Source: Bacteroidetes bacterium GWF2_33_38 (GTDB lineage Bacteria > Bacteroidota > Bacteroidia > Bacteroidales > GWF2-33-38). From it: DNA of 64,000 nucleotides. Position numbers and translations under genes: made by a program. Shown in pieces: positions 4,911 to 45,233 of the stretch (position 1 is its first letter; each line of letters opens with the position of its first letter). The DNA lies in contig MEOF01000039.1 of the NCBI GenBank assembly GCA_001769505.1, positions 21,177-85,176 on the forward strand, read 5' to 3'. The notes below the pieces were generated by a model, which searched no databases, had not been told where the DNA came from, and saw only the letters and a program-made list of their open reading frames with translations.

Positions 4911-5175
4911 TTATACCAATTGCCAATAGTATAAAGATTAGAAATAAGCCTCTAACTTTGTTTAGCAGTAAATAAGCCTAAAATACAAAATCGCAATCAA
5001 TTAATTATCAGTGGGTTATGCTTGTGTTAGATAGATTACGATTCAATGTGACCGACACAATTTAAAAATAAGATACCCGCTTTTGCGGGTATGTGGTAAT
5101 TTTTTGAGGCCTATTCCCTTGAAAAAGGGAATCTAAAAATCACATATGTGTCATATGGAAATAGAATTGGTATAA
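4911..5175. repeat. MITE-like non-coding element with 11-bp terminal inverted repeats
   Basis: TTATACCAATT at 4911-4921 and its exact reverse complement AATTGGTATAA at 5165-5175 bound 265 bp with no ORF. The interior carries a run of perfect hairpins. Size, perfect termini and lack of coding fit a miniature inverted-repeat element, but only one copy is in this window and no clear target-site duplication is visible. A chance pairing in AT-rich DNA is possible. Confidence 0.4.
5064..5092 (-). terminator. Rho-independent terminator (minus strand)
   Basis: Perfect 8-bp stem ATACCCGC/GCGGGTAT with a 4-nt loop (5073-5092), followed on the minus strand by a T-rich tract (CTTATTTTT). It lies about 120 bp downstream of the minus-strand gene block 5215-7051 and would stop transcription before the hydrogenase operon. 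Confidence 0.6.
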
Positions 5176-15203: not shown

Positions 15204-16760
15204 ATGATATTAGAAGTTGACATTGTAACTACGCCTTTAGAATCATCCGACGAGAAATTTTATGTTCCAATTGCCGCAAAATCGGCAAAAGTTTCAGTTT
15301 CACAAGTCTATTTTGCTAAAATCATTCGTCGCTCTGTCGATGCTCGCTCAAGAAACATAAAGATTAATCTAAAAATATTATTAGCTGTTGATGAACCAAA
15401 CTATAGCTACAAAGCAACTGAATTTGACTATCAAAATGTTGCAGGAAAAGAAGAAATTGTTGTTATTGGTTCGGGTCCTGCCGGTTTATTTGCTGCCTTA
15501 CGATTAATAGAACTTGGTTTTAAACCTATTGTATTAGAACGCGGAAAAGAAATAAGTAAACGAAAAAAAGATGTTGCGATATTGAATCGAGAACATTTGC
15601 TTGACGAAAATTCTAATTATTGTTTTGGAGAAGGAGGAGCGGGAACTTTTTCCGATGGTAAATTATATACTCGTTCAAAAAAAAGAGGAAATATTCGACG
15701 CATTCTCGAAATTTTGCACTTTCATGGGGCATCTGAAGATATTTTAGTAGATACACAAGCTCATATAGGAACTGATAAATTGCCTGGGATTATTCAAAAT
15801 ATACGTAAAACTATTTTAAATTCGGGTGGCGAAATTCATTTTGAAACTCGACTTGTTGATATTGTTATAAAAGATGAATTGATTAAATCGCTTATTACTG
15901 ACAAGGGAGACAAGATAAAACCCCAAGCAGTGGTTCTAGCGACAGGCCATTCGGCAAGAGATATTTACGATTTGTTTCAAAAAAAGAATGTTTTATTAGA
16001 ATTTAAACCTTTTGCGGTTGGAGTCAGGGTTGAGCACCCACAAGCAATGATTGACGAAATTCAGTATCATGGAGCAAAGAATGATTATTTACCGACGGCT
16101 TCTTATGGACTGGTTGCTCAAGTTAATGGCAGGGGTGTTTATTCTTTTTGTATGTGTCCAGGCGGAATTATTGTTCCATCGGCAACATCTTTGAATGAAG
16201 TAGTTGTAAATGGAATGTCGGCTTCAAAAAGAAATTCACCGTATGCAAATTCAGGAATTGTTGTTGAAACGCGATTTGAAGATTTAAAAAAATATCATCA
16301 ATACGGAGCATTAGCAGGATTAATGTTTCAAAAGGAAATCGAACAATTGGCATTTCAGAACGGCGATAATGGAAAGCATGCTCCAGCACAAGCTTTAGCT
16401 GATTTTGTAAAAGGAAAAACTTCGAATAAACTCCCGAAATGTTCGTATAATCCAGGAGTTATTCCCTCATCATTACATATTTGGCTTCCCGAACAAATTG
16501 GAAAACGATTACAATACGGATTTAACGATTTTTCAAAAAAGATGAAAGGATTTGTTACCAACGAAGCAATAATTCTCGGGGTTGAATCCCGCACCTCTTC
16601 CCCAGTTAGAATTCCTCGAGACAAAGAACAACTGAATCATATCCAGATTAGAAATTTATTTCCTTGTGGCGAAGGAGCTGGCTATGCTGGAGGAATTGTT
16701 TCGTCGGCATTAGATGGGGAAAATGTTGTTGAAGCTCTTGTTCGCACTATTAAAATTTAA
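15204..16760 (+). CDS. FAD-dependent NAD(P)-type oxidoreductase (COG2509-like)
   Basis: 518 aa. An N-terminal region of about 80 aa (MILEVDIVTTPLESSDEKF ... SVDARSRNIKINLKILL) precedes a Rossmann FAD site VVIGSGPAGLFAALRLIELG (about 90-110) with LERGKEISKRK. Other family motifs are CFGEGGAGTFSDGKLYTRSK (about 145-165), VLATGHSARDIYDLF, and a C-terminal FPCGEGAGYAGGIVSSALDG. This matches the widespread uncharacterised FAD-dependent dehydrogenases of the COG2509 group. No partner enzyme is evident; 6 bp separate it from the histidine kinase gene, so they may be co-expressed. Physiological substrate unknown. Confidence 0.85.
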   Translation: MILEVDIVTTPLESSDEKFYVPIAAKSAKVSVSQVYFAKIIRRSVDARSRNIKINLKILLAVDEPNYSYKATEFDYQNVAGKEEIVVIGSGPAGLFAALRLIELGFKPIVLERGKEISKRKKDVAILNREHLLDENSNYCFGEGGAGTFSDGKLYTRSKKRGNIRRILEILHFHGASEDILVDTQAHIGTDKLPGIIQNIRKTILNSGGEIHFETRLVDIVIKDELIKSLITDKGDKIKPQAVVLATGHSARDIYDLFQKKNVLLEFKPFAVGVRVEHPQAMIDEIQYHGAKNDYLPTASYGLVAQVNGRGVYSFCMCPGGIIVPSATSLNEVVVNGMSASKRNSPYANSGIVVETRFEDLKKYHQYGALAGLMFQKEIEQLAFQNGDNGKHAPAQALADFVKGKTSNKLPKCSYNPGVIPSSLHIWLPEQIGKRLQYGFNDFSKKMKGFVTNEAIILGVESRTSSPVRIPRDKEQLNHIQIRNLFPCGEGAGYAGGIVSSALDGENVVEALVRTIKI

Positions 16761-16766
16761 CAAAAA

Positions 16767-17711
16767 ATGATTGAATACATAAGTTTAATTCTCTCCATTT
16801 TATTACAGTTTGTTGCTGCATTTTTTGCAATACGGTTAATCAAACGTACTAAATATTCGCTTGCTTGGATTTTGCTGTCATCTGGTTTTTTTTTCATGGC
16901 AATTCGACGTGTTTTTGAGTTGATTTATTTTGAATACGATCAACTTCCGTATTTTTTTTCAACCTTGAATAGCTGGATAGGAATTTTAATATCGATTTTA
17001 ATTACAGTTGGTGTTTTCTTGATGAGAAAAATATTTCAATTTATGAAAAAAACGGAAGAAGACAGAGTTGAAGCCGATTTAAAAGAATTAAACGCAACCA
17101 TTAGAACCGAAGAAAAAGAACGACGCAGGTTTGCAAAAGATTTACACGATGATTTAGGACCATTACTTTCGACTATAAAAATGTCTATTTCTGCTCTTTC
17201 GAATCAAAAAAATTTAGAAAATAAAAACGAAATTATTCAAAACCTTGATTTAGTTGTTGACGAAGCGATTTCCAGTATAAAAAATATTTCGAACAATTTA
17301 AGTCCTCATATTTTGAACAACTTCGGATTAGAACGAGCGTTGAAATCATTTATCAATAAAATAAATTTATCGAAAAGTATCGTAATAAATTACACGTCAA
17401 ACGTCGAAAATTTAAAATTGGATGAAACCGTTGAAGTTGTAGTTTATAGAACTGTTTGTGAGCTGATTAATAACACTATTAAATACGCAGATGCAAGCAA
17501 AATAGAAATAATTGTAACACAAAATGATAAAATTCTAGACATTATATATCGAGATAATGGAAAAGGTTTTGATGCAGAAATTCTAAATATAGAGAAAAAA
17601 GGGATGGGCTTGAATAATATTCAAAATAGAATTAAATCAATAAAAGGAATTTTTGAAATCAAGAGTTCAGAAAATCAAGGAGTTGAAGTAAAAATTCAAA
17701 TAAAAATTTGA
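16767..17711 (+). CDS. Membrane histidine kinase, NarX/DesK-like (HisKA_3)
   Basis: 314 aa. Three hydrophobic helices (about 4-24, 30-50, 68-90) with very short external loops, then a coiled linker and the HisKA_3 box RRRFAKDLHDDLGPLLSTIK (phospho-His in DLHDD), followed by a C-terminal HATPase with VCELINNTIKYA, YRDNGKGFD and KGMGLNNIQNRI. There is no PAS or periplasmic sensor, so sensing is likely within or near the membrane. Its stop codon nearly abuts the response regulator at 17714, so the two form a two-component pair. Confidence 0.9.
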   Translation: MIEYISLILSILLQFVAAFFAIRLIKRTKYSLAWILLSSGFFFMAIRRVFELIYFEYDQLPYFFSTLNSWIGILISILITVGVFLMRKIFQFMKKTEEDRVEADLKELNATIRTEEKERRRFAKDLHDDLGPLLSTIKMSISALSNQKNLENKNEIIQNLDLVVDEAISSIKNISNNLSPHILNNFGLERALKSFINKINLSKSIVINYTSNVENLKLDETVEVVVYRTVCELINNTIKYADASKIEIIVTQNDKILDIIYRDNGKGFDAEILNIEKKGMGLNNIQNRIKSIKGIFEIKSSENQGVEVKIQIKI

Positions 17712-17713
17712 AA

Positions 17714-18364
17714 ATGAATACTTGTAATATTACGATTGTTGACGATCATCATTTATTCCGCAATGGACTTAAACTGTTATTGAATGGGATTGAAAATTTC
17801 AAGGTTGTAAACGAGGCTGAAAATGGATTAGAATTGCTCAAAATTTTATTGAAAGAGGGAATTCCTGATGTAATTCTATTAGACATTGAAATGCCAATAA
17901 TGAACGGAATCGAAGCTGCTGAAAAGGTTTTGTCATTGTATCCTGATGCTAAAATAATTGTACTATCGATGTATAGTGACGAAGAGTATTATTACAAATT
18001 GATAAACATAGGGGTTAAGGGATTTTTACTTAAAAATTCAAACATCAATGATGTTGAAACGGCTATTGTAAGTATTTGTAATGGAGGTAATTATTTTTCG
18101 GCTGAATTGTTATTAAACACGATAAAAAATATCAAAAAAATAAACAAACAGCCCGATATAGACAGCGGTTTATCTGAACGTGAAATCGAAATATTAATTG
18201 ATATTTGTAAAGGATTTTCAAATCAAGAAATTGCCAACAAACTATTCATTAGCAAACGCACCGTAGATAAGCATCGTGCTAATATTATGGAAAAAACAGA
18301 TTCGAAAAATACCGCAAATTTGATAATGTACAGCATCAAAAATAATATAATTCAACTGCCATAA
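17714..18364 (+). CDS. NarL/LuxR-type response regulator
   Basis: 216 aa from the ATG at 17714; the ORF track used a TTG (17708) that lies inside the kinase gene. Receiver: VDDHH at 9-13, Asp57 in VILLDIEMP, Ser in VLSMYSD, Lys in FLLKNSN. The C-terminal LuxR helix-turn-helix is LSEREIEILIDICKGFSNQE ... FISKRTVDKHRANIMEKT. Paired with the kinase at 16767-17711. A perfect 12-bp palindrome ATAAGTACTTAT, which contains a NarL-type heptamer, lies 10 bp after its stop and before the TauE/Hdr genes, which are plausible targets (inference). Confidence 0.92.
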   Translation: MNTCNITIVDDHHLFRNGLKLLLNGIENFKVVNEAENGLELLKILLKEGIPDVILLDIEMPIMNGIEAAEKVLSLYPDAKIIVLSMYSDEEYYYKLINIGVKGFLLKNSNINDVETAIVSICNGGNYFSAELLLNTIKNIKKINKQPDIDSGLSEREIEILIDICKGFSNQEIANKLFISKRTVDKHRANIMEKTDSKNTANLIMYSIKNNIIQLP

Positions 18365-20108: not shown

Positions 20109-21143
20109 ATGAGTAATTGGAAAAACTATCAAAAAGAAATTTGCGACGATAATTTTTATTATGCAAGAAGTTGTATTCGTCAGAATTTTTTTCCTGGTTC
20201 AGAAAATATTTTTGTAAAAATATTGCGTGAAGTTTTGAATAAAAATGTTTACGACGATGCTGAACATACAACCTGCACTGGAATTGGATATCATTCTGAT
20301 GTTGTTCCATTTGAAACAATTCAAACCGTTGTAGCTCGAAATTTTAGTTTAATGTCGAACAAAGGATTTGAAAATTTGGCAATTTCTTGCGTTACATCTT
20401 TCGGAATTTATACCGAAATAACCGAAACATGGAAACATTTTCCTGAAGAAGAACAAAAAATTCGTGGATTTTTGAAAAAATCTACCAATCGAGAATTTAT
20501 TCAACCGCTAATAATGTCACACTGCAGTGATATTTTTTACAAATTTAGAAACGAAATTTTCGAAAAAGCAAAATATTCATTGGTTAACAAAAACACAGGA
20601 AAACCGCTAAAAGTTGTTGAACATATTGGATGTCATTATGCAAAAATGTTTCCCGAAAAAGGAGTTGGTGGAGCAGAATTTCCTCAAGTTTTAGCTGGAA
20701 TGATTACTGCTTGGGGTGGCGAAGTTGTTGATTATCCTGAACGCAGACACTGTTGTGGCTTTGGTTTTCGACAATATTTGGTAAAAGCAAATCGTGGATA
20801 TTCAATTTCAAATTCGATTAAAAAGTTTGAAGCAATGAAACCTTACAAACCCGATTTTATTGTTGCAAATTGTCCTGGTTGTGCAATGTTTATGGATAAA
20901 TGGCAATACACAGCAAAAGAAATGAACGGCGAAACTTATGGCGAAAACGGCGAACAAATTCCTGTTTTAACTTACGAAGAAATGGCTGGTTTGGTTCTTG
21001 GATATAATCCTTGGGATTTAGGTTTACAAATGCATCAAATTGATTGTGAACCACTTTTGAAAAAAATGCATTATGAATATAATCCTGAAGATAAATTTAG
21101 AAATTTGAAGGGCGAAAAAATTGGAGAAGAGGCAAAAGGTTAA
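20109..21143 (+). CDS. HdrB-like CCG-domain protein with degenerate first motif
   Basis: 344 aa. The second CCG cluster motif is complete: CHYAKMF (about 176), RHCCGFG (about 218) and NCPGCAMF (about 257), the five cysteines that bind a non-cubane 4Fe-4S cluster in HdrB. The first motif is eroded: Cys in ARSCIRQNFFPG, TTCTGIGYHS where CC is expected, and ISCVTSF where CxxC is expected, so two of five ligands are gone. It should form the disulfide- or thiol-reactive subunit with HdrC- and HdrA-like partners. Substrate unknown; methanogen CoM-S-S-CoB is not expected in this lineage. Confidence 0.83.
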   Translation: MSNWKNYQKEICDDNFYYARSCIRQNFFPGSENIFVKILREVLNKNVYDDAEHTTCTGIGYHSDVVPFETIQTVVARNFSLMSNKGFENLAISCVTSFGIYTEITETWKHFPEEEQKIRGFLKKSTNREFIQPLIMSHCSDIFYKFRNEIFEKAKYSLVNKNTGKPLKVVEHIGCHYAKMFPEKGVGGAEFPQVLAGMITAWGGEVVDYPERRHCCGFGFRQYLVKANRGYSISNSIKKFEAMKPYKPDFIVANCPGCAMFMDKWQYTAKEMNGETYGENGEQIPVLTYEEMAGLVLGYNPWDLGLQMHQIDCEPLLKKMHYEYNPEDKFRNLKGEKIGEEAKG

Positions 21144-21267
21144 AGGCATAAGGCAAAAGAGAGAATTCAGAATTCAGGAGACAGAAGTCAGAAGTTGGAA
21201 ATTAGAAGTTGGAAAATAGAATTCAGAATAAAATTGCTAATTGATAATTATTAATTGATAATTGAGG
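21144..21267. repeat. Heptamer-periodic spacer 2 of the Hdr operon
   Basis: From 21163 to 21267 the DNA reads as 15 consecutive 7-mers in one register: gaattca, gaattca, ggagaca, gaagtca, gaagttg, gaaatta, gaagttg, and so on to attgata, attatta, attgata, attgagg. The plus strand is strongly purine-biased. The last unit contributes a GAGG ribosome-binding site for the HdrA-like gene. Confidence 0.75.
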
Positions 21268-21277
21268 GGCTAAAAAA

Positions 21278-22300
21278 ATGAAAAGCGTAATTGTAATTGG
21301 TGGCGGTATTGCAGGAGTTGAAACAGCAAATCAACTTTCGATGTTTGGACACAAAGTTTTGTTGCTCGAAAAAGATGCAGAATTGGGTGGAAAAATAAAT
21401 AATTGGCATTGTTTATTTCCAAATTTGAGAGATGCAAGCGAAATAAAATCGTACATAAATAAAATTGCTGACGAAAATCGTTTTGCAATAAATAGAAACA
21501 CCGAAATTGTAAAATTCACAAAAAATAATCAACTTCATCCAATTGACCAAAATGGCGATGAATACGAAGCTGATGCTGTAGTTTTAGCAACAGGTTTTAA
21601 ACTTTTTAGAGCCGAACGAAAAGAAGAATATGGTTACAATATTTACAAAAATGTAATCACATCTGCTGATTTGGAACGAAAATTCAACGAAAAAAGTTTA
21701 GATACAAAAAATCCGCCAAGGCGAATTGCCATTGTGCATTGCGTAGGTTCTCGTGACGAAAAATCGGGAAACCACTATTGTTCAAAAGTTTGTTGCATTA
21801 CAGGCGTGAAACAAGCCATAGAATTAAAAAAAACATTTCCTGACGCTGAAATAATTTGCTTTTATATGGATTTGCGTATGCACGGAAAAGGCTACGAAGA
21901 ATTGTATCGTGAAGCACAAGAAAAATATTTCGTGCAATTTATTCGTGGACGAGTTTCTGAAGCATCAGAAAATATTGATAAATCAATTCAAATTAAAGCT
22001 GAAGATACACTTTCGGGAAAACCGTTAAAAATGACTGTTGATATGATGGTTTTGTTGGTTGGAATGGAAATGGAAAAAACATCAGTTTCGTTGGTTTCTG
22101 GTTGCAATGTTGAATTTGGAAACAATCGTTTTTTCAACGTAAAAGACGAATTTACACAACCAAATAGCACTTTAGAAAAAAATATTTTTGTTGCAGGAGC
22201 TTGTTCATCGCCAATGAATATTTCGGAAGCAATTTTGAGTGCAAGATCAACAGCTGTGGAAGTAAATAAATATCTAGGTAATATGGAAATAAAGGTATAA
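21278..22300 (+). CDS. HdrA-like FAD subunit (short form)
   Basis: 340 aa with a GAGGGG ribosome-binding site 8 bp before the ATG. FAD site VIVIGGGIAGVETANQLSMFG at 4-24, LLEKDAELGGKINNW, and the HdrA hallmark HCVGSRDEKSGNHYCSKVCC (about 148-167). It ends with the FAD-binding motif FVAGACSSPMNISEAILSARS. It lacks the N-terminal and C-terminal ferredoxin domains found in methanogen HdrA and QmoB, so its 4Fe-4S partners must be the separate HdrC-like proteins. It would be the flavin hub of the complex; whether it bifurcates cannot be judged from sequence. Confidence 0.88.
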   Translation: MKSVIVIGGGIAGVETANQLSMFGHKVLLLEKDAELGGKINNWHCLFPNLRDASEIKSYINKIADENRFAINRNTEIVKFTKNNQLHPIDQNGDEYEADAVVLATGFKLFRAERKEEYGYNIYKNVITSADLERKFNEKSLDTKNPPRRIAIVHCVGSRDEKSGNHYCSKVCCITGVKQAIELKKTFPDAEIICFYMDLRMHGKGYEELYREAQEKYFVQFIRGRVSEASENIDKSIQIKAEDTLSGKPLKMTVDMMVLLVGMEMEKTSVSLVSGCNVEFGNNRFFNVKDEFTQPNSTLEKNIFVAGACSSPMNISEAILSARSTAVEVNKYLGNMEIKV

Positions 22301-24538: not shown

Positions 24539-24609
24539 GTCATTTCGACCAAAGGGAGAAATCTCAAACTTTAAGAAAAAATTAGATTTCTCACATACGT
24601 TCGAAATGA
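24539..24609. repeat. REP-like imperfect palindrome in a convergent terminus
   Basis: TGTCATTTCGAC...GGGAGAAATCT (24539-24564) pairs with AGATTTCTC...GTTCGAAATGA (24584-24609), leaving a short loop. This 'GTCATTTCGAC ... GAGAAATCT' pattern resembles palindromic repeats dispersed in many Bacteroidota genomes. It lies between the convergent ends of the Hdr operon and the minus-strand gene 24684-26219 and may act as a two-way transcription end or mRNA-stabilising stem. Confidence 0.55.
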
Positions 24610-33477: not shown

Positions 33478-34056
33478 TTATTTTATATAATATTCATGTA
33501 AATAAAAAGTATCTAAATTCTCAAATGAAACATACTGAATCAATCCAACATTAGGGGCAAACCAATACTTACTATTATGAAAAACAACATCTTTATATTG
33601 TAGAGAACTGTCACTATTTAAGTAAAATATTGGGATAGTGGTTCCTGATATTAATGTATCTGAATCATATGTTGAAGCCATTCTTATTAAATAACTAGCA
33701 ATACCACTTATAATGAACCTACCGCCTTCACATTCCATATTATTATTATATTGTGCATTAGCACTATCTTTTTCTCCAATATAATTTGAAAACATTGTAA
33801 ATGATATTTCATCCCACTCTCTACAGTACTCCTGCCTATCTTTTCCTTTATTGTTTTCATAATTTGATATATAGACACTATCTTTTTTCGTAAGGTTTTT
33901 ATTATAGTAAATCCAATAATTTCCATCTTTGAATACTGAAAAATATTTTTCTCCAGTTTCAGGCATTGGACAATAATCTAGTGTTTTACACCTTTTGCAA
34001 CTATAAAATGATGTAAAGAATAGTGCTATAACAAAAATGATATAATATTTTTTCAA
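33478..34056 (-). CDS. Lipoprotein of unknown function, tandem copy B
   Basis: 192 aa with a lipoprotein signal (MKKYYIIFVIALFFTSFYSCKRC); start is TTG. A cysteine-rich start of the mature part (CKRCKTLDYCPMPETGEKYF) is followed by WIYYNKNLTKKDSVYISNYE and a C-terminus DTFYLHEYYIK. It shares about half its residues with the upstream gene 34053-34631 over the full length. Both are 192 aa, so they are a tandem duplicate. Overlap is 4 bp (TTGA), meaning coupled translation. Function unknown; likely anchored at the outer membrane. Confidence 0.75.
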   Translation of the reverse strand: MKKYYIIFVIALFFTSFYSCKRCKTLDYCPMPETGEKYFSVFKDGNYWIYYNKNLTKKDSVYISNYENNKGKDRQEYCREWDEISFTMFSNYIGEKDSANAQYNNNMECEGGRFIISGIASYLIRMASTYDSDTLISGTTIPIFYLNSDSSLQYKDVVFHNSKYWFAPNVGLIQYVSFENLDTFYLHEYYIK

Positions 34057-34631
34057 TGTATATAATATTCGTGTAAATAAAAAGTATCTAAACTATTCTT
34101 TGAGACATATTGAACGATACCGATATTGGGTGTAAACCAATATTTATCATTGTACTTTATCGTTTTTGAATATTCAAATGTAGAATCATAATTCCAAAAA
34201 CCAGATAGAATTTCCTGATTTAGCAGGGTGTCAACATCATTTGCAGAATTAATTTCAACTATAACTCCTTCTGTATAGTTTTTAATTCTAAATACACCTC
34301 CATTTCCCATTGTATTTCCAGTAAAAGTACCAATCAAATAATCGCCGTCATACATAAATGACGAATTTAAATGAAATCTTAAATTATCCCATTCTATACA
34401 AAATTCCATTCCATCTTTTTCACGTGTTATTTCATAATTAGAAATGTAAACGCTATCTTTTTTTGTAAGGTCTTTATTGTAATAAATCCAATAATTATCT
34501 TCGTTGAACACAGAAAAATATTTTTCGGTAGCTTCTGGCATCGGACAATAATCTAAATTTTTACAATGGTAACAACTTGTAAACGAAACAGAGAACATAA
34601 AAACAAAAAATGGTATGATTGATAATTTCAT
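34053..34631 (-). CDS. Lipoprotein of unknown function, tandem copy A
   Basis: 192 aa, lipoprotein signal MKLSIIPFFVFMFSVSFTSCYHC with lipobox Cys in FTSC. It contains CKNLDYCPMPEATEKYF and WIYYNKDLTKKDSVYISNYE, almost identical to copy B; the middle parts have diverged (residues 75-150), and the ends match again (QYVSKNSLDTFYLHEYYIH). Conserved cysteines near the mature N-terminus could form a disulfide. No domain recognised. Lies 32 bp after the alanine dehydrogenase stop on the same strand. Confidence 0.75.
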   Translation of the reverse strand: MKLSIIPFFVFMFSVSFTSCYHCKNLDYCPMPEATEKYFSVFNEDNYWIYYNKDLTKKDSVYISNYEITREKDGMEFCIEWDNLRFHLNSSFMYDGDYLIGTFTGNTMGNGGVFRIKNYTEGVIVEINSANDVDTLLNQEILSGFWNYDSTFEYSKTIKYNDKYWFTPNIGIVQYVSKNSLDTFYLHEYYIH

Positions 34632-40586: not shown

Positions 40587-42287
40587 ATGAAATTATACCC
40601 CATCATAGTTTGCTTTTTATTTTTTTCGACTACGGTATTTTCTCAGAAAAATATCGAGTTATTCATTGAGTATTCCGACTCGTCGATTGTAAAGCATGGT
40701 GGAAAGAAAGTCTTTTTTCTCGATAGTCTCAAGCTTAATTCGTATTTGGACAATTTCATTGTTGAACAAAAAGCAGAAGGTTATTTAACTTCATCAATTG
40801 ATCAAATTTCGATAGATTCGACAAAGGCAACAGTCCAACTATTTACCGGAAATAAGTACACTTGGAAAAATATTTATACAGACTCGATTGAACAGGTATT
40901 TTTGAAAAAAAATGGAATACAACTATCTCGTTACAATAATAAGTTTTTTGAACAGAATTCATTTTATAATTTAATGAATAAAATTGTTGGTGTGTATGAA
41001 AATAATGGTTATCCTTTTACAAAAATCCAACTCAATAAAACAACTTTTTATGATAACAAAATCTCGACATTTATCGATATTAAAAAAGATAATCTTTATC
41101 GTATTGATAGTGTTAATGCTATTGGAAATGCAAAAATATCGTCTTCGATTTTATATCATTTAATCGACATTCATCCACACGATATTTACAATGAAACTAA
41201 AATCAGAGAAATAGACAAGAAAATTAAAAATGTTCCTTACTTGAGGCTGGCAAAATCGGTCGAGGTTTTTTATTCTGACGATGAAGCAAAAATTTTGCTG
41301 GAACTCGAAAAACAAAAAGCCAATCAGTTTAACGGAATTATTGGTTTTATTCCAAATGCGAATCTCAGCAATAAATTGCTTTTAACAGGCGATTTAAAGC
41401 TTTTGATTTATAATCAATTAACATTAGGCGAAAAGCTGGATTTCAATTGGCAAAAAATTGATCAGTATTCGCAAAAAGTCGATGCAGGAGTTAATGTTCC
41501 TTACTTTTTCAATATCCCAATTGGTTTTGCCGGAAATTTAAACTTGAACAAGAAAGATACTTCATATTTGAATGTAAATGCCAATTTAGCTGTGCTTTTT
41601 CATGTTTCAACCAATAGTTCGATTGATATTTTTTATCAAAACAAATCGTCAAACGTGTTAAGCGACTACGTGCAAAATATTTCGAATGTTAGCACAAGCT
41701 TATTTGGCTTTGGACTAAGTATTCAAAACCTAGATTACATATACAATCCATCGAACGGAGTTGAGGTAAACATGAAAATAGGAGCAGGCAATAAGAAAGG
41801 CGACTCAGAATTGTTGACCGAAAAACAACAAACGCAGATTGAAAGTGTAAGCGAAATTCAATTTTACAAAACCATTGTCGGAAATTTGATTTTTAGAGTC
41901 CGAAATCAATCGGCATTTATAAAACTTTATAACGAAACAAATTATAATTTTTACGAGAATGAAGCTTTTCGTGTAGGAGGACTTAAATCGCTGAGGGGAT
42001 TCGACGAAGAGGCGATTTTTGCAACATCGTATTCGATTTTTACCACCGAGTTAAGATATTTGTTTGAAGAAAATTCGGCTATTTACTTATTCTCAGATGG
42101 AGGATATGTAGAAAAAAACTTAATCTCCGGATTTGAGTCTGACATGCCTATTGGAATTGGAGCAGGAATTGACTTTGAAACAAAAGCTGGAATTTTTACT
42201 CTCAATTATGCATTAGGAAAACAATTAGGAAATCCGTTTTCGATACGTTCGGCTAAAATTCATTTAGGCTTTATCAGTAGATTTTAA
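40587..42287 (+). CDS. BamA/TamA-type outer-membrane protein (Omp85 superfamily)
   Basis: 566 aa. Signal peptide (MKLYPIIVCFLFFSTTVFSQ), then two or three POTRA-like segments (about 30-250, e.g. IFYDSKISTFIDIKKDNLYRIDSVNAIGNAKISSS with the beta-alpha pattern) and a C-terminal 16-strand barrel. The barrel carries the Omp85 signature FRVGGLKSLRGFDEEAI (about 470) and ends RSAKIHLGFISRF with a terminal aromatic. Shorter than BamA (about 800 aa), so more like a two-partner or TamA-type transporter of the FhaC/ShlB family. The last 34 bp, including the stop, are repeated perfectly at 43669-43702. Confidence 0.85.
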   Translation: MKLYPIIVCFLFFSTTVFSQKNIELFIEYSDSSIVKHGGKKVFFLDSLKLNSYLDNFIVEQKAEGYLTSSIDQISIDSTKATVQLFTGNKYTWKNIYTDSIEQVFLKKNGIQLSRYNNKFFEQNSFYNLMNKIVGVYENNGYPFTKIQLNKTTFYDNKISTFIDIKKDNLYRIDSVNAIGNAKISSSILYHLIDIHPHDIYNETKIREIDKKIKNVPYLRLAKSVEVFYSDDEAKILLELEKQKANQFNGIIGFIPNANLSNKLLLTGDLKLLIYNQLTLGEKLDFNWQKIDQYSQKVDAGVNVPYFFNIPIGFAGNLNLNKKDTSYLNVNANLAVLFHVSTNSSIDIFYQNKSSNVLSDYVQNISNVSTSLFGFGLSIQNLDYIYNPSNGVEVNMKIGAGNKKGDSELLTEKQQTQIESVSEIQFYKTIVGNLIFRVRNQSAFIKLYNETNYNFYENEAFRVGGLKSLRGFDEEAIFATSYSIFTTELRYLFEENSAIYLFSDGGYVEKNLISGFESDMPIGIGAGIDFETKAGIFTLNYALGKQLGNPFSIRSAKIHLGFISRF

Positions 42288-42288
42288 A
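42255..42288 (+). repeat. 34-bp direct repeat, copy 1 (3' end of the Omp85 gene)
   Basis: Begins AAAATTCATTTAGGC and ends with the gene's TAA plus one A. The second identical copy is at 43669-43702. The two bracket the T9SS cargo gene. Confidence 0.95.
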
Positions 42289-42367
42289 TTCAAAAACGTC
42301 TTAAAAATCTTAATCTTTTGTCGATTTAGATTACTTGGAGGAAAATATGAATAATCTTCAAATCAAA

Positions 42368-43528
42368 TTATGTATCTGATTTTATGATGATTTCGGAGAA
42401 AATATTTTCTGAATTTTCTAAAATATTCAAATAATAAATTCCTGTTTTGGGAATTTCGGTCGAATATATTTTGGATTCGCTTATTTGGGAGTCAAGTTTT
42501 TTAATTAAAATTATTCGACCTAAGTTATCGGTAATAATAACTTGAATATTCGTTAAATTATTATCATTGAAAATAATTTTGAAATCATCGAAAAATGGAT
42601 TTGGAGAAATTGTAATTTCAGTTTCTTGAGCATCAACAATAGTTACAGATTCTTTTAATAAAGTTGTTATTCCATTAAAATCAACATTCCACAAACGATA
42701 ATAATTTATTCCTATTTTAGCATATTCATCACAATATTTGTACTCAGAATTTGATTGATTTGTAGCACTAATTTCCGCAATTTTCGAGTAATTATTTGCA
42801 TCAAAACTTCGTTCAATAAAATAATAATTGTTGTTAATTTCAGTTTTCGAAATCCACGATATATTTACAGTCGATTTTTCTGCAACACAATTAAAAATAC
42901 TCAATTTTACAGGAAGCGTTGAATAAATAGTTGTATTTGCAGGAATTGAACTCGTGGGATTTATTCCAAAAGTTTCGCCAGCTCCAAAATACGAACCGCT
43001 TGTTGTAATAATTCCAACTCCTTTAATAATTCCGCCAAATCCGTTATCGAAATTTCCTCCAACAATCATTATTCCATCAACCACCACATTTATTGTGTTA
43101 TTTTTATTTTTAAAATCGCTTGAAATTGCCAAAACACCCGATGCTCGAACGTGTAATGTGCTTCCATTACTTAAAGTTAAGTTGCTCATATTCATAGTTC
43201 CATAAATATCGAGTGTTGCTCCATTTTGAACATCTATATCCAACGTTGTTAAAACTCCAGAACTATCAATTTGTAAAAAACCGTTCAAATTTGAACTTGT
43301 GAAATTTACCACGCTATGTTTTATTCTAATATTATCAGAAAAACTTGGAACTACGGGCGACCAAATTGATGCATTTGTCCAATTTCCATTTTGCAAACTT
43401 GTTACATTTGTTGAAAAAATTGATTTTGTGATTATTGTGAAGATAAAAAAAATACAAATACCTATGGAATTAATATTCTTCGTACTAGCAGGCTTGCTAT
43501 GAACTTCTATATAATTTATTGAGTTCAT
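42368..43528 (-). CDS. T9SS-sorted secreted protein, cargo with SPNP tail
   Basis: 386 aa. The N-terminus is unusual: about 20 hydrophilic residues before the hydrophobic signal (SIGICIFFIFTIITKSIFS). Residues 60-190 form a repeated beta-helix-like domain (GTLDIYGTMNMSNLTLSNGSTLHV-type strands with GG...FG spacing) as in G8-like surface proteins. Residues 205-290 look like a fibronectin/Ig-like domain (LSIFNCVAEKSTVNISWISKTE, DYYRLWNVDFNGITTL). The C-terminus ITISPNPFFDDFKIIF...SEIIIK is the type A T9SS sorting domain, about 80 aa. Extracellular or cell surface. It lies reversed relative to its neighbours inside a segment bracketed by a 34-bp direct repeat, so it may be an insertion. Confidence 0.82.
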   Translation of the reverse strand: MNSINYIEVHSKPASTKNINSIGICIFFIFTIITKSIFSTNVTSLQNGNWTNASIWSPVVPSFSDNIRIKHSVVNFTSSNLNGFLQIDSSGVLTTLDIDVQNGATLDIYGTMNMSNLTLSNGSTLHVRASGVLAISSDFKNKNNTINVVVDGIMIVGGNFDNGFGGIIKGVGIITTSGSYFGAGETFGINPTSSIPANTTIYSTLPVKLSIFNCVAEKSTVNISWISKTEINNNYYFIERSFDANNYSKIAEISATNQSNSEYKYCDEYAKIGINYYRLWNVDFNGITTLLKESVTIVDAQETEITISPNPFFDDFKIIFNDNNLTNIQVIITDNLGRIILIKKLDSQISESKIYSTEIPKTGIYYLNILENSENIFSEIIIKSDT

Positions 43529-43910
43529 AATATTTGTTGGTTTTTGTTATATTAATTTACGACTTTTAATCAGCGATAAATACAGCAAAAACACGTATTT
43601 CTTTCGTTAATTTTTAATTTTCATTTAATTATTAGAAATAGACGAAGGCATCGAGGTCAGAAATCAGAAAAATTCATTTAGGCTTTATCAGTAGATTTTA
43701 AAGGTAAATGTTTTTGTAAAAACAATCTCTTTAATGATATGCTCATTTCAAATTACTTTTCGGTTTAATTTTTGGTTATATGGTAATTTATTCATCTGAT
43801 TATCAACAAATAAGCAAATAAACGAATAAGCAAAATTTTCTGGTTTCTAAATAATTTGAGTATTAAAAAGCGAAAATTTCCACCGCACTAAATATCAAAA
43901 GTCAGGAAAA
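43529..43910. other. 382-bp spacer with repeat copy 2 and short periodic runs
   Basis: No ORF. It holds the second 34-bp repeat copy (43669-43702), immediately preceded by ggtcaga/aatcaga-type heptads, and an 8-mer run caaataag/caaataaa/cgaataag near 43807-43835. The sequence between 43703 and 43910 is AT-rich with no further feature seen. Confidence 0.6.
43669..43702 (+). repeat. 34-bp direct repeat, copy 2 (orphan duplicate of the Omp85 3' end)
   Basis: Identical to 42255-42288, same orientation, but here not attached to any ORF. Distance between copies is 1414 bp start to start. The flanking bases beyond 34 bp differ. Confidence 0.95.
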
Positions 43911-45233
43911 TTATTTCTTTTTTCCTCTGGTAGTAAAAGGTTTTTTATATTTTTTCATTTTTTTGGAAGGACCGCCTAAATTTACCTTTTTATTTTTGTC
44001 CTTTTTCTCATGAAATGCTCCTTTTGAGTCTGTATTTGATGTTTTTTTTAAATAATCTTTGTCGAAAAGTTTTGGTTTTTCTTCGTCGGTATATATATCC
44101 GAAATTTTCAGATTTTGAGGTAGCGGTTCCAACGAAATAGCTTTTTTCATCATTTTTTCAATTCGCATTTGAAATTCCAATTCGGCTTCGTTTACAAATG
44201 TTATCGATATTCCGCCTTTATCGGCTCGACCGGTTCGACCAATTCTGTGAATATAGTCTTCGGGCAATTCAGGAGTGTCGAAATTTACGACATGTGTAAC
44301 ATTATCGACATCGATTCCTCGCGAAATTAAATCGGTTGCTATCAAAACTCTAAGAGCTTCTTCTTGGAATCGTTTCAACGAATTAAATCGTTGATTTTGT
44401 GATTTATTGGAATGTATAACTCCTATTTGCTCAGGAAATTTTGCATTTATTTGTTCAAAAAGTCTATCGGCTAACTTTTTATTATCAACAAATACCAACA
44501 CTTTTTGCATTTCTAAGTCGTTGGCAAGAATATATTCGAGTAAATTAACTTTTGTGTAAAAATTAGGAACATGATAGACTTTTTGAATAATTTTTTCGAT
44601 TGGTGTACCGTGTTCTGTTATTTCGATTTTAAGTGGGTTGTAAAAATATTCGTCGATTAATTTTTTTACATCTTCGGTAAGTGTTGCAGAGAACATTAGA
44701 TTTTGGCGCTTTGGGGGCAACGAATCCATCAAGTCGATTAATTGCTGACGAAAACCAAGATTTAACATTTCATCAACTTCATCAATAACTAGCTTTTGTA
44801 CCATTTTTAATCGTAAAACACCCGACAATGCCAAATCGACTAGTCGTCCAGGTGTTGCAATTAAGATATCTATTCCATTGTAAACCAATTGTTTTTGAGT
44901 TTTGATATTAGCTCCTCCATACACTCCCTCAACTCGAACTGTAATGTACTTTGAGAGTTTTTGGAGTTCACCTAATACTTGCTTCACCAACTCACGAGTT
45001 GGAACAACAATCAACACTCGCGGATGTTTGTCGTCAGAATATTTTAATTGTCGTAAAATAGGCAACAAATAAGCGATTGTTTTTCCTGTCCCGGTTTGTG
45101 CAATTCCCACTAAGTCTTTGCCTGACATGATTACTGGAAATGCTTCTTTTTGAATAGGAGTAGGCATTACAAAATCAATATCGTTAAGAGCATTGATTAA
45201 GGGGGGCGAAAGGTTTAAATCGTTAAAAGTCAC
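43911..45233 (-). CDS. DEAD-box RNA helicase with DEVD motif II
   Basis: 440 aa; start is GTG at 45233. Q motif FVMPTPIQKEAFPVIM, Walker A GIAQTGTGKTIAYLLP, PTRELVKQV, motif II IDEVDEML (DEVD instead of DEAD), SAT in MFSATLTEDV, and HRIGRTGRADKGG near the end. A lysine-rich unstructured tail (KKDKNKKVNLGGPSKKMKK) can bind RNA. It belongs to the RhlE/DbpA-like group that remodels ribosomal or mRNA structure, often at low temperature. One of two DEAD-box genes here. The spacing to gldA is 103 bp. Confidence 0.93.
   Translation of the reverse strand: MTFNDLNLSPPLINALNDIDFVMPTPIQKEAFPVIMSGKDLVGIAQTGTGKTIAYLLPILRQLKYSDDKHPRVLIVVPTRELVKQVLGELQKLSKYITVRVEGVYGGANIKTQKQLVYNGIDILIATPGRLVDLALSGVLRLKMVQKLVIDEVDEMLNLGFRQQLIDLMDSLPPKRQNLMFSATLTEDVKKLIDEYFYNPLKIEITEHGTPIEKIIQKVYHVPNFYTKVNLLEYILANDLEMQKVLVFVDNKKLADRLFEQINAKFPEQIGVIHSNKSQNQRFNSLKRFQEEALRVLIATDLISRGIDVDNVTHVVNFDTPELPEDYIHRIGRTGRADKGGISITFVNEAELEFQMRIEKMMKKAISLEPLPQNLKISDIYTDEEKPKLFDKDYLKKTSNTDSKGAFHEKKDKNKKVNLGGPSKKMKKYKKPFTTRGKKK

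Follow-up and report, generated by a model that had tools for sequence, protein, structure and literature searches.

The 1.38-kb T9SS segment that follows an Omp85 gene has, in our estimate, rather better than an even chance of being acquired DNA that entered by recombination in the 3′ end of that gene, with no dedicated integrase needed. Many small acquired bacterial genes sit outside recognisable mobile elements, and their route of arrival can seldom be told; from a displaced gene tail one can read where the insertion took place, which gene served as anchor, in which direction the event ran and, by the tail's decay, roughly how old the event is. The locus lies in the window (the whole 64-kb stretch of DNA that was analysed), and its features are given in Table 1 with those of comparable loci.

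The duplicated Omp85 gene end

A perfect 34-bp direct repeat (AAAATTCATTTAGGCTTTATCAGTAGATTTTAAA), first reported in a sequence-only reading of the window, is present there in two identical copies. The left copy comprises codons 557–566 of the Omp85 gene (KIHLGFISRF), the TAA stop codon, and one further nucleotide, the repeat ending one base past the stop. No other exact direct repeat in the window is as long (the runner-up measures 21 bp); in 20 order-3 Markov simulations of the window, the maximal repeat was 16–20 bp. Its edges are sharp, with 60-bp flanks only 23% and 32% identical. With up to three mismatches allowed, the 34-mer has only two copies in the 3.93-Mb genome; it is absent from 392 other genomes of the order, and its central 24 bases have no match in viral contigs. 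A dispersed repeat, which the earlier reading had itself raised as the danger to its interpretation, is rejected on these counts. The right copy is an isolated gene end, because its in-frame reading is TAG-TKASRSEIRKIHLGFISRF-stop. A terminator or hairpin role for the repeat was also rejected: no terminator was found, and the fold energy of the 34-mer is 0 kcal/mol (no stable fold). By our own calculation, 34 unchanged neutral sites allow a divergence of up to about 8%, so the age is only loosely bounded.

Table 1. Features of the Omp85 locus (window coordinates) and of other loci with displaced gene tails (L numbers are our locus labels)
Feature	Location	Strand	Basis or repeat
Target gene, Omp85/BamA-like 566-aa outer-membrane protein with POTRA domain	40587..42287	+	Pfam Omp85 48.2 bits, POTRA 26.2 bits
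Left 34-bp copy, intact Omp85 3′ end (10 codons, stop, 1 nt)	42255..42288	+	sequence identity with right copy
Presumed insert of 1,380 bp, without a donor or second copy in the genome	42289..43668	.	genome and plasmid searches
Cargo, 386-aa T9SS type A sorted secreted protein	42368..43528	-	Pfam/NCBIfam profiles, composition
Right 34-bp copy, presumed displaced native Omp85 3′ end	43669..43702	+	copy search, in-frame reading
DEAD-box RNA helicase (RhlE-like), presumed original convergent neighbour of Omp85	43911..45233	-	
bioA, reversed DUF2442/DUF4160 pair	L082 (G001)		28-bp identical block
glmM-like, type I specificity subunit (HsdS)	L228		30/31 bp
pepA, reversed Fic protein	L206		33/34 bp
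Rubrerythrin-like gene, reversed RloB and RloA-like genes	L217		near-identical 38-bp block within 91 bp at 85%
Phosphohexomutase, AbiH and T9SS protein	L219		diverged tail copy
Fe-S protein, secreted protein and ankyrin protein	L163		114 bp at 76%
Diadenylate-cyclase-like gene, only about 240 bp from its displaced tail	L116		
kdpE tail and displaced copy	L238 (E. coli K-12) 16721-16870 and 21056-21733		

Between the copies lies one reversed gene, as had been read from the sequence, and its product is a T9SS protein by both profiles for the C-terminal sorting domain (Por_Secre_tail, 28.0 bits against a cut-off of 27; TIGR04183, 32 against 23). The absence of an integrase also held on inspection, with no recombinase and no second open reading frame of at least 100 aa between the copies. 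The cargo gene has a GC content of 0.287 and a GC3 of 0.199, at the 8th and 10th percentiles among host genes. The segment shows no similarity to Omp85. A search of the rest of the genome yielded no donor copy (other matches are at most 43.7 bits, at chance level or from a paralogue) and no second occurrence of the segment's inner end. Plasmids gave no match, phage proteins gave weak partial matches only, and the central 24-mer is without a viral match; a mobile element common to viruses or plasmids was rejected on this basis. Two distant paralogues of the cargo, on contigs C43 and C14 (32% and 30% identity), have no flanking repeats, and bracketing as a property of the cargo's gene family is therefore rejected.

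The host is the sole member of its genus in the genome set, which includes two relatives from the same family (G001 and G002). The Omp85 gene has matches in 33 of 60 related genomes. In G001 and G002, its counterparts are 42% and 40% identical and are followed by a gene that we take, from reading its sequence, to be malate-dehydrogenase-like; these loci are not empty sites for the insert, because Omp85 is only 40–42% identical and the neighbours are different. At about 30 other Omp85 orthologues, no duplicated gene tail was seen (the best downstream matches, 17–21 of 34 bases, are at chance level) and no cargo homologue adjoins the gene, in a sparse sampling of possible donors. No genome with an empty Omp85 site or a donor arrangement occurs among the relatives compared, none of them of the same genus. 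If the segment was inserted, the earlier junction would have been Omp85 with a single 34-bp copy, followed directly by GGTAAATGTTTTTGTAAAAACA.

Displaced gene tails at other loci

Isolated direct repeats and displaced gene tails were surveyed in 2.3 Mb, covered as stretches rather than whole genomes (1.37 Mb of the host's own genome, 0.62 Mb of G001, and 0.31 Mb of G002). At least seven further genes have a downstream orphan copy of their own 3′ end, a frequency of about one scar per 0.3 Mb. At six of the seven, the gene and its displaced tail enclose 0.6–2.6 kb of cargo, in which defence genes (HsdS, Fic, RloAB/AbiL, and AbiH) are frequent; the names glmM, rubrerythrin, phosphohexomutase, Fe-S, and diadenylate cyclase are presumptive, taken from reading the sequences rather than from a family search. 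All seven copies extend to a stop codon that coincides with the gene's own or lies close to it, beyond which similarity is lost. The inserts at the surveyed loci contain no recombinase, and target genes and repeats differ in every case (eight with Omp85, the repeats being unrelated). Cargo genes of four inserts in the host's own genome fall at percentiles 0–18 for GC and 3–26 for GC3; such low values agree with acquired DNA and are not proof of it. Of other T9SS genes, the C43 and C14 paralogues are unbracketed; one T9SS protein is encoded within the phosphohexomutase insert in the three-genome survey.

As a control, the last, first, and middle 150 bp of 1,483 genes of at least 150 aa were compared with 6 kb on either side, after removal of paralogues and dispersed repeats. 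Strong orphan matches (E < 1e-10) numbered six for tails downstream and none upstream, none for heads downstream and two upstream, and none for mid-gene segments on either side; the excess is specific to displaced 3′ ends, in small numbers. We rely on this DNA-level control because a protein-level tail search was unspecific, upstream head fragments being equally frequent. Part of the signal may be ordinary pseudogene debris. A SpoIIE-like tail (L160) was left out as possibly paralogous, and two tails at L089 were rejected as paralogue tails.

The direction of the event can be read at bioA. G002, of the same genus as G001, has a bioA gene with no insert, and its protein is 83% identical to that of G001. 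Of the 26 bases that follow the shared block in G002, the displaced G001 tail matches 21 and the present G001 tail 16, the latter still more than in shuffles (p 0.003); the displaced tail is thus the native one, and the gene has taken a foreign but homologous tail along with its cargo. The Fe-S gene has the same cargo on its 3′ side in both G001 and G002, so that event predates their split. These two cases argue against plain local duplication as a general explanation, and a simple staggered-break duplication is unlikely for either. With the same architecture at other genes and a relative that has an empty bioA site, the proposal of an insertion that leaves the gene intact is likely right for Omp85, the observation itself being confirmed; its further claim of site-specific integration fares badly against the differing targets and repeats and the lack of a recombinase.

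Displaced gene tails are not unique to this Bacteroidota family, since one occurs in E. coli K-12, where it was the only case in 400 kb scanned once full paralogues were set aside. There, the final 144 bp of kdpE have a copy of 90% identity 4.2 kb downstream, past speF-potE, as the pseudogene ybfI, with no integrase. Unlike the Omp85 scar, this displaced tail is older and longer, and its insert is close to fixation, with 80% or more of speF-potE present in 5,025 of 5,426 E. coli genomes. About 300 of the 5,426 have no match to it, and these may include empty sites or deletions.

At two of the survey loci, further duplications were seen. Inside the glmM insert, a 72-bp copy of the HsdS gene start (98.6% identical) lies upstream of that gene (L228 7013-7084 and 5735-6883), which suggests a second rearrangement there. 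Near bioA, a duplication of roughly 145 bp lies upstream of two different G001 genes (L082 1944-2088 and 3045-3189).

Possible routes of entry and comparison with known systems

Entry by homology would require incoming DNA that bore a homologous Omp85 gene end adjoining the T9SS gene. Recombination at the Omp85 tail could then be a single crossover, or a homologous crossover on one side with an illegitimate join on the other; the former would suit a circle, and homology-facilitated illegitimate recombination would suit linear DNA. The Omp85 frame would stay open, and its old end would persist as a short scar on the downstream side, ahead of the helicase gene. By analogy with bioA, we infer that the locus arose by homologous pairing rather than through a recombinase, because the targets and repeats all differ and the inserts are without a recombinase, and because the genome has only three tyrosine recombinases that pass the family threshold and the 34-mer and its core are absent from other genomes and from viral contigs, respectively. 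The repeat ends at the stop codon, where homology between species would end, and this counts for homology-directed entry; its 34 bp are short for RecA pairing, and this counts against. The repeat, its uniqueness, the missing recombinase, and the recurrence of tails are direct observations, and native and foreign tails are told apart for bioA only; the Omp85 tails are identical, so that a foreign tail is not distinguishable there, which also weighs against the homology model. The genome encodes a ComEC-type competence protein; proteins of this type are widespread.

Site-specific integration would involve an att site resembling the Omp85 3′ end on a non-autonomous element, moved by a tyrosine recombinase acting in trans, as for a CIME or an integrase-less island. 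The repeat coincides exactly with the gene's 3′ end, which it restores, as is classically seen for e14 in icd with its icdC remnant beyond the prophage, and e14, ICEs, IMEs, and CIMEs likewise duplicate a gene end on both sides of the insert and leave the gene intact. All of those have an integrase and a fixed att site or descend from elements that do; neither an integrase nor an integrase-bearing element with the same att site was found here. Three proteins of this genome pass the family cut-off for tyrosine recombinases: two are Xer-like, and the third, which is XerA/integron-integrase-like and encoded on another contig, counts in favour of this route. Against this route stand eight different targets with unrelated repeats, inserts that all lack an integrase, an inner end that recurs nowhere else, and the failure to find another element with the 34-mer in the host genome or the 392 others, or its core in viral contigs. 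We regard site-specific integration as unlikely; the non-autonomous cassette of the sequence-only reading, with no recombinase in or beside the inserts, is not supported. Homology-directed acquisition better explains the variable targets and the homologous replacement tails. An integron gene cassette was rejected as well, since the unfolded 34-mer and unrepeated insert end do not resemble attC, a folded imperfect palindrome shared by cassettes.

A staggered break, filled in and joined to foreign DNA, could have produced a 34-bp target-site duplication with no donor homology. For restriction-modification genes of Helicobacter pylori, PMC1643837 and PMC3031569 report insertion with long target duplication, citing Nobusato et al. 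2000. The likeness is considerable: the events are integrase-less, with direct repeats of variable length that exceed IS target duplications, and defence cargo is typical (compare HsdS at glmM); at Omp85, the edges are sharp, the 34-bp repeat is 100% identical, and the insert has no transposase or integrase. An uninterrupted single-copy target in a related genome was found for bioA. Known cases come from closely related strain pairs, whereas Omp85 has no such pair and its cargo is a T9SS protein. Moreover, some tails here are homologous but diverged: those of bioA and rubrerythrin continue in this way past the identical block and need a foreign homologous tail, and a filled-in break gives no reason for a repeat that ends at the stop codon. 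For Omp85, we consider this origin decidedly improbable.

Very little probability attaches to a rearrangement of native DNA in which the Omp85 tail and cargo were duplicated together and the remainder was lost or converted. The two distant cargo paralogues in the genome could be taken to favour it, but it requires several precise events, and there is no donor copy, no residual similarity beside the copies, and a compositional shift in the cargo; the alternative of local duplication with later divergence, offered in the earlier reading, gains nothing from an insert unlike Omp85 and repeat edges that are sharp. An assembly artefact, from joined strain variants or a duplicated short stretch, is extremely improbable. 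The assembly is fragmented (70 contigs), yet 34 bp is well below usual assembly k-mers, the copies lie 1.4 kb apart with distinct flanks, and both independent assemblies and the finished E. coli K-12 genome show the same architecture.

Homology-directed entry has parallels elsewhere. For T6SS, Rhs, and CDI loci, homology-facilitated illegitimate recombination has been proposed as the source of orphan genes and gene ends (PMC5361080). These share with the present cases a conserved upstream anchor, a new 3′ end with a new downstream gene, and an old end orphaned downstream. Their tail is a polymorphic toxin domain under selection, in contrast to the housekeeping targets and apparently functionally equivalent new tails seen here; the displaced Omp85 tail is the last 10 codons of a barrel, not a toxin domain with an immunity gene. 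Single crossovers between partly homologous DNAs during E. coli conjugation duplicated 109–950 bp of the target locus (PMC3240628). The topology is the same, circular DNA with partial homology integrating and duplicating part of the locus, but those were laboratory duplications that carried plasmid DNA, compared with 34 bp and a 1.4-kb insert at Omp85.

We advance only tentatively the possibility that, in this Bacteroidota family, the 3′ ends of housekeeping genes are recurrent integrase-free docking points for defence and surface-protein genes, with displaced native tails as datable scars. If so, gene-tail scars would serve in general to locate defence genes that were newly acquired and lie outside known mobile elements. 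That one family has several scars, many of them next to anti-phage genes, points to a simple search, applicable to any genome, for integrase-free, homology-acquired genes. The Omp85 locus is itself of moderate interest, mainly in that the scar is common in the family and often adjoins defence genes; the kind of event is already known.

Other repeats and a recombinase

The XerA/integron-integrase-like recombinase (contig C56) is a 536-aa protein with a long N-terminal extension; it adjoins a 41-bp repeat spaced 359 bp apart and a PHA-depolymerase-like gene (L145 2156-3766 and 3884-4283 for the group). A motif near it (L145, about 4180) is related to TTGTTGGTGATAACACCAACAA, palindromes of which form a local array, about 0.3–1.2 kb apart, at L104 17300-19280.

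Several other repeats were observed. In the window, two tandem 192-aa genes (33478-34631) look paralogous, and 21 bp at their 3′ ends are identical. An intergenic repeat about 125 bp long, which contains palindromes such as ATACCCGCTTTTGCGGGTAT, is dispersed over several sites of the genome, among them window positions 5051-5175, L076 9507-9632, and L103 (about 6205 and 11661). REP-like dispersed intergenic repeats (TGTCATTTCGA...GAGAAATCT) are found at window positions 24584-24609 and in L087 and L100, clustered in the last at 15500-18250. A 120-bp repeat with AACTTTGTCAAAGTT palindromes is common to L077 (8889-9008) and a matching stretch of L078, and the same palindrome recurs in L097.
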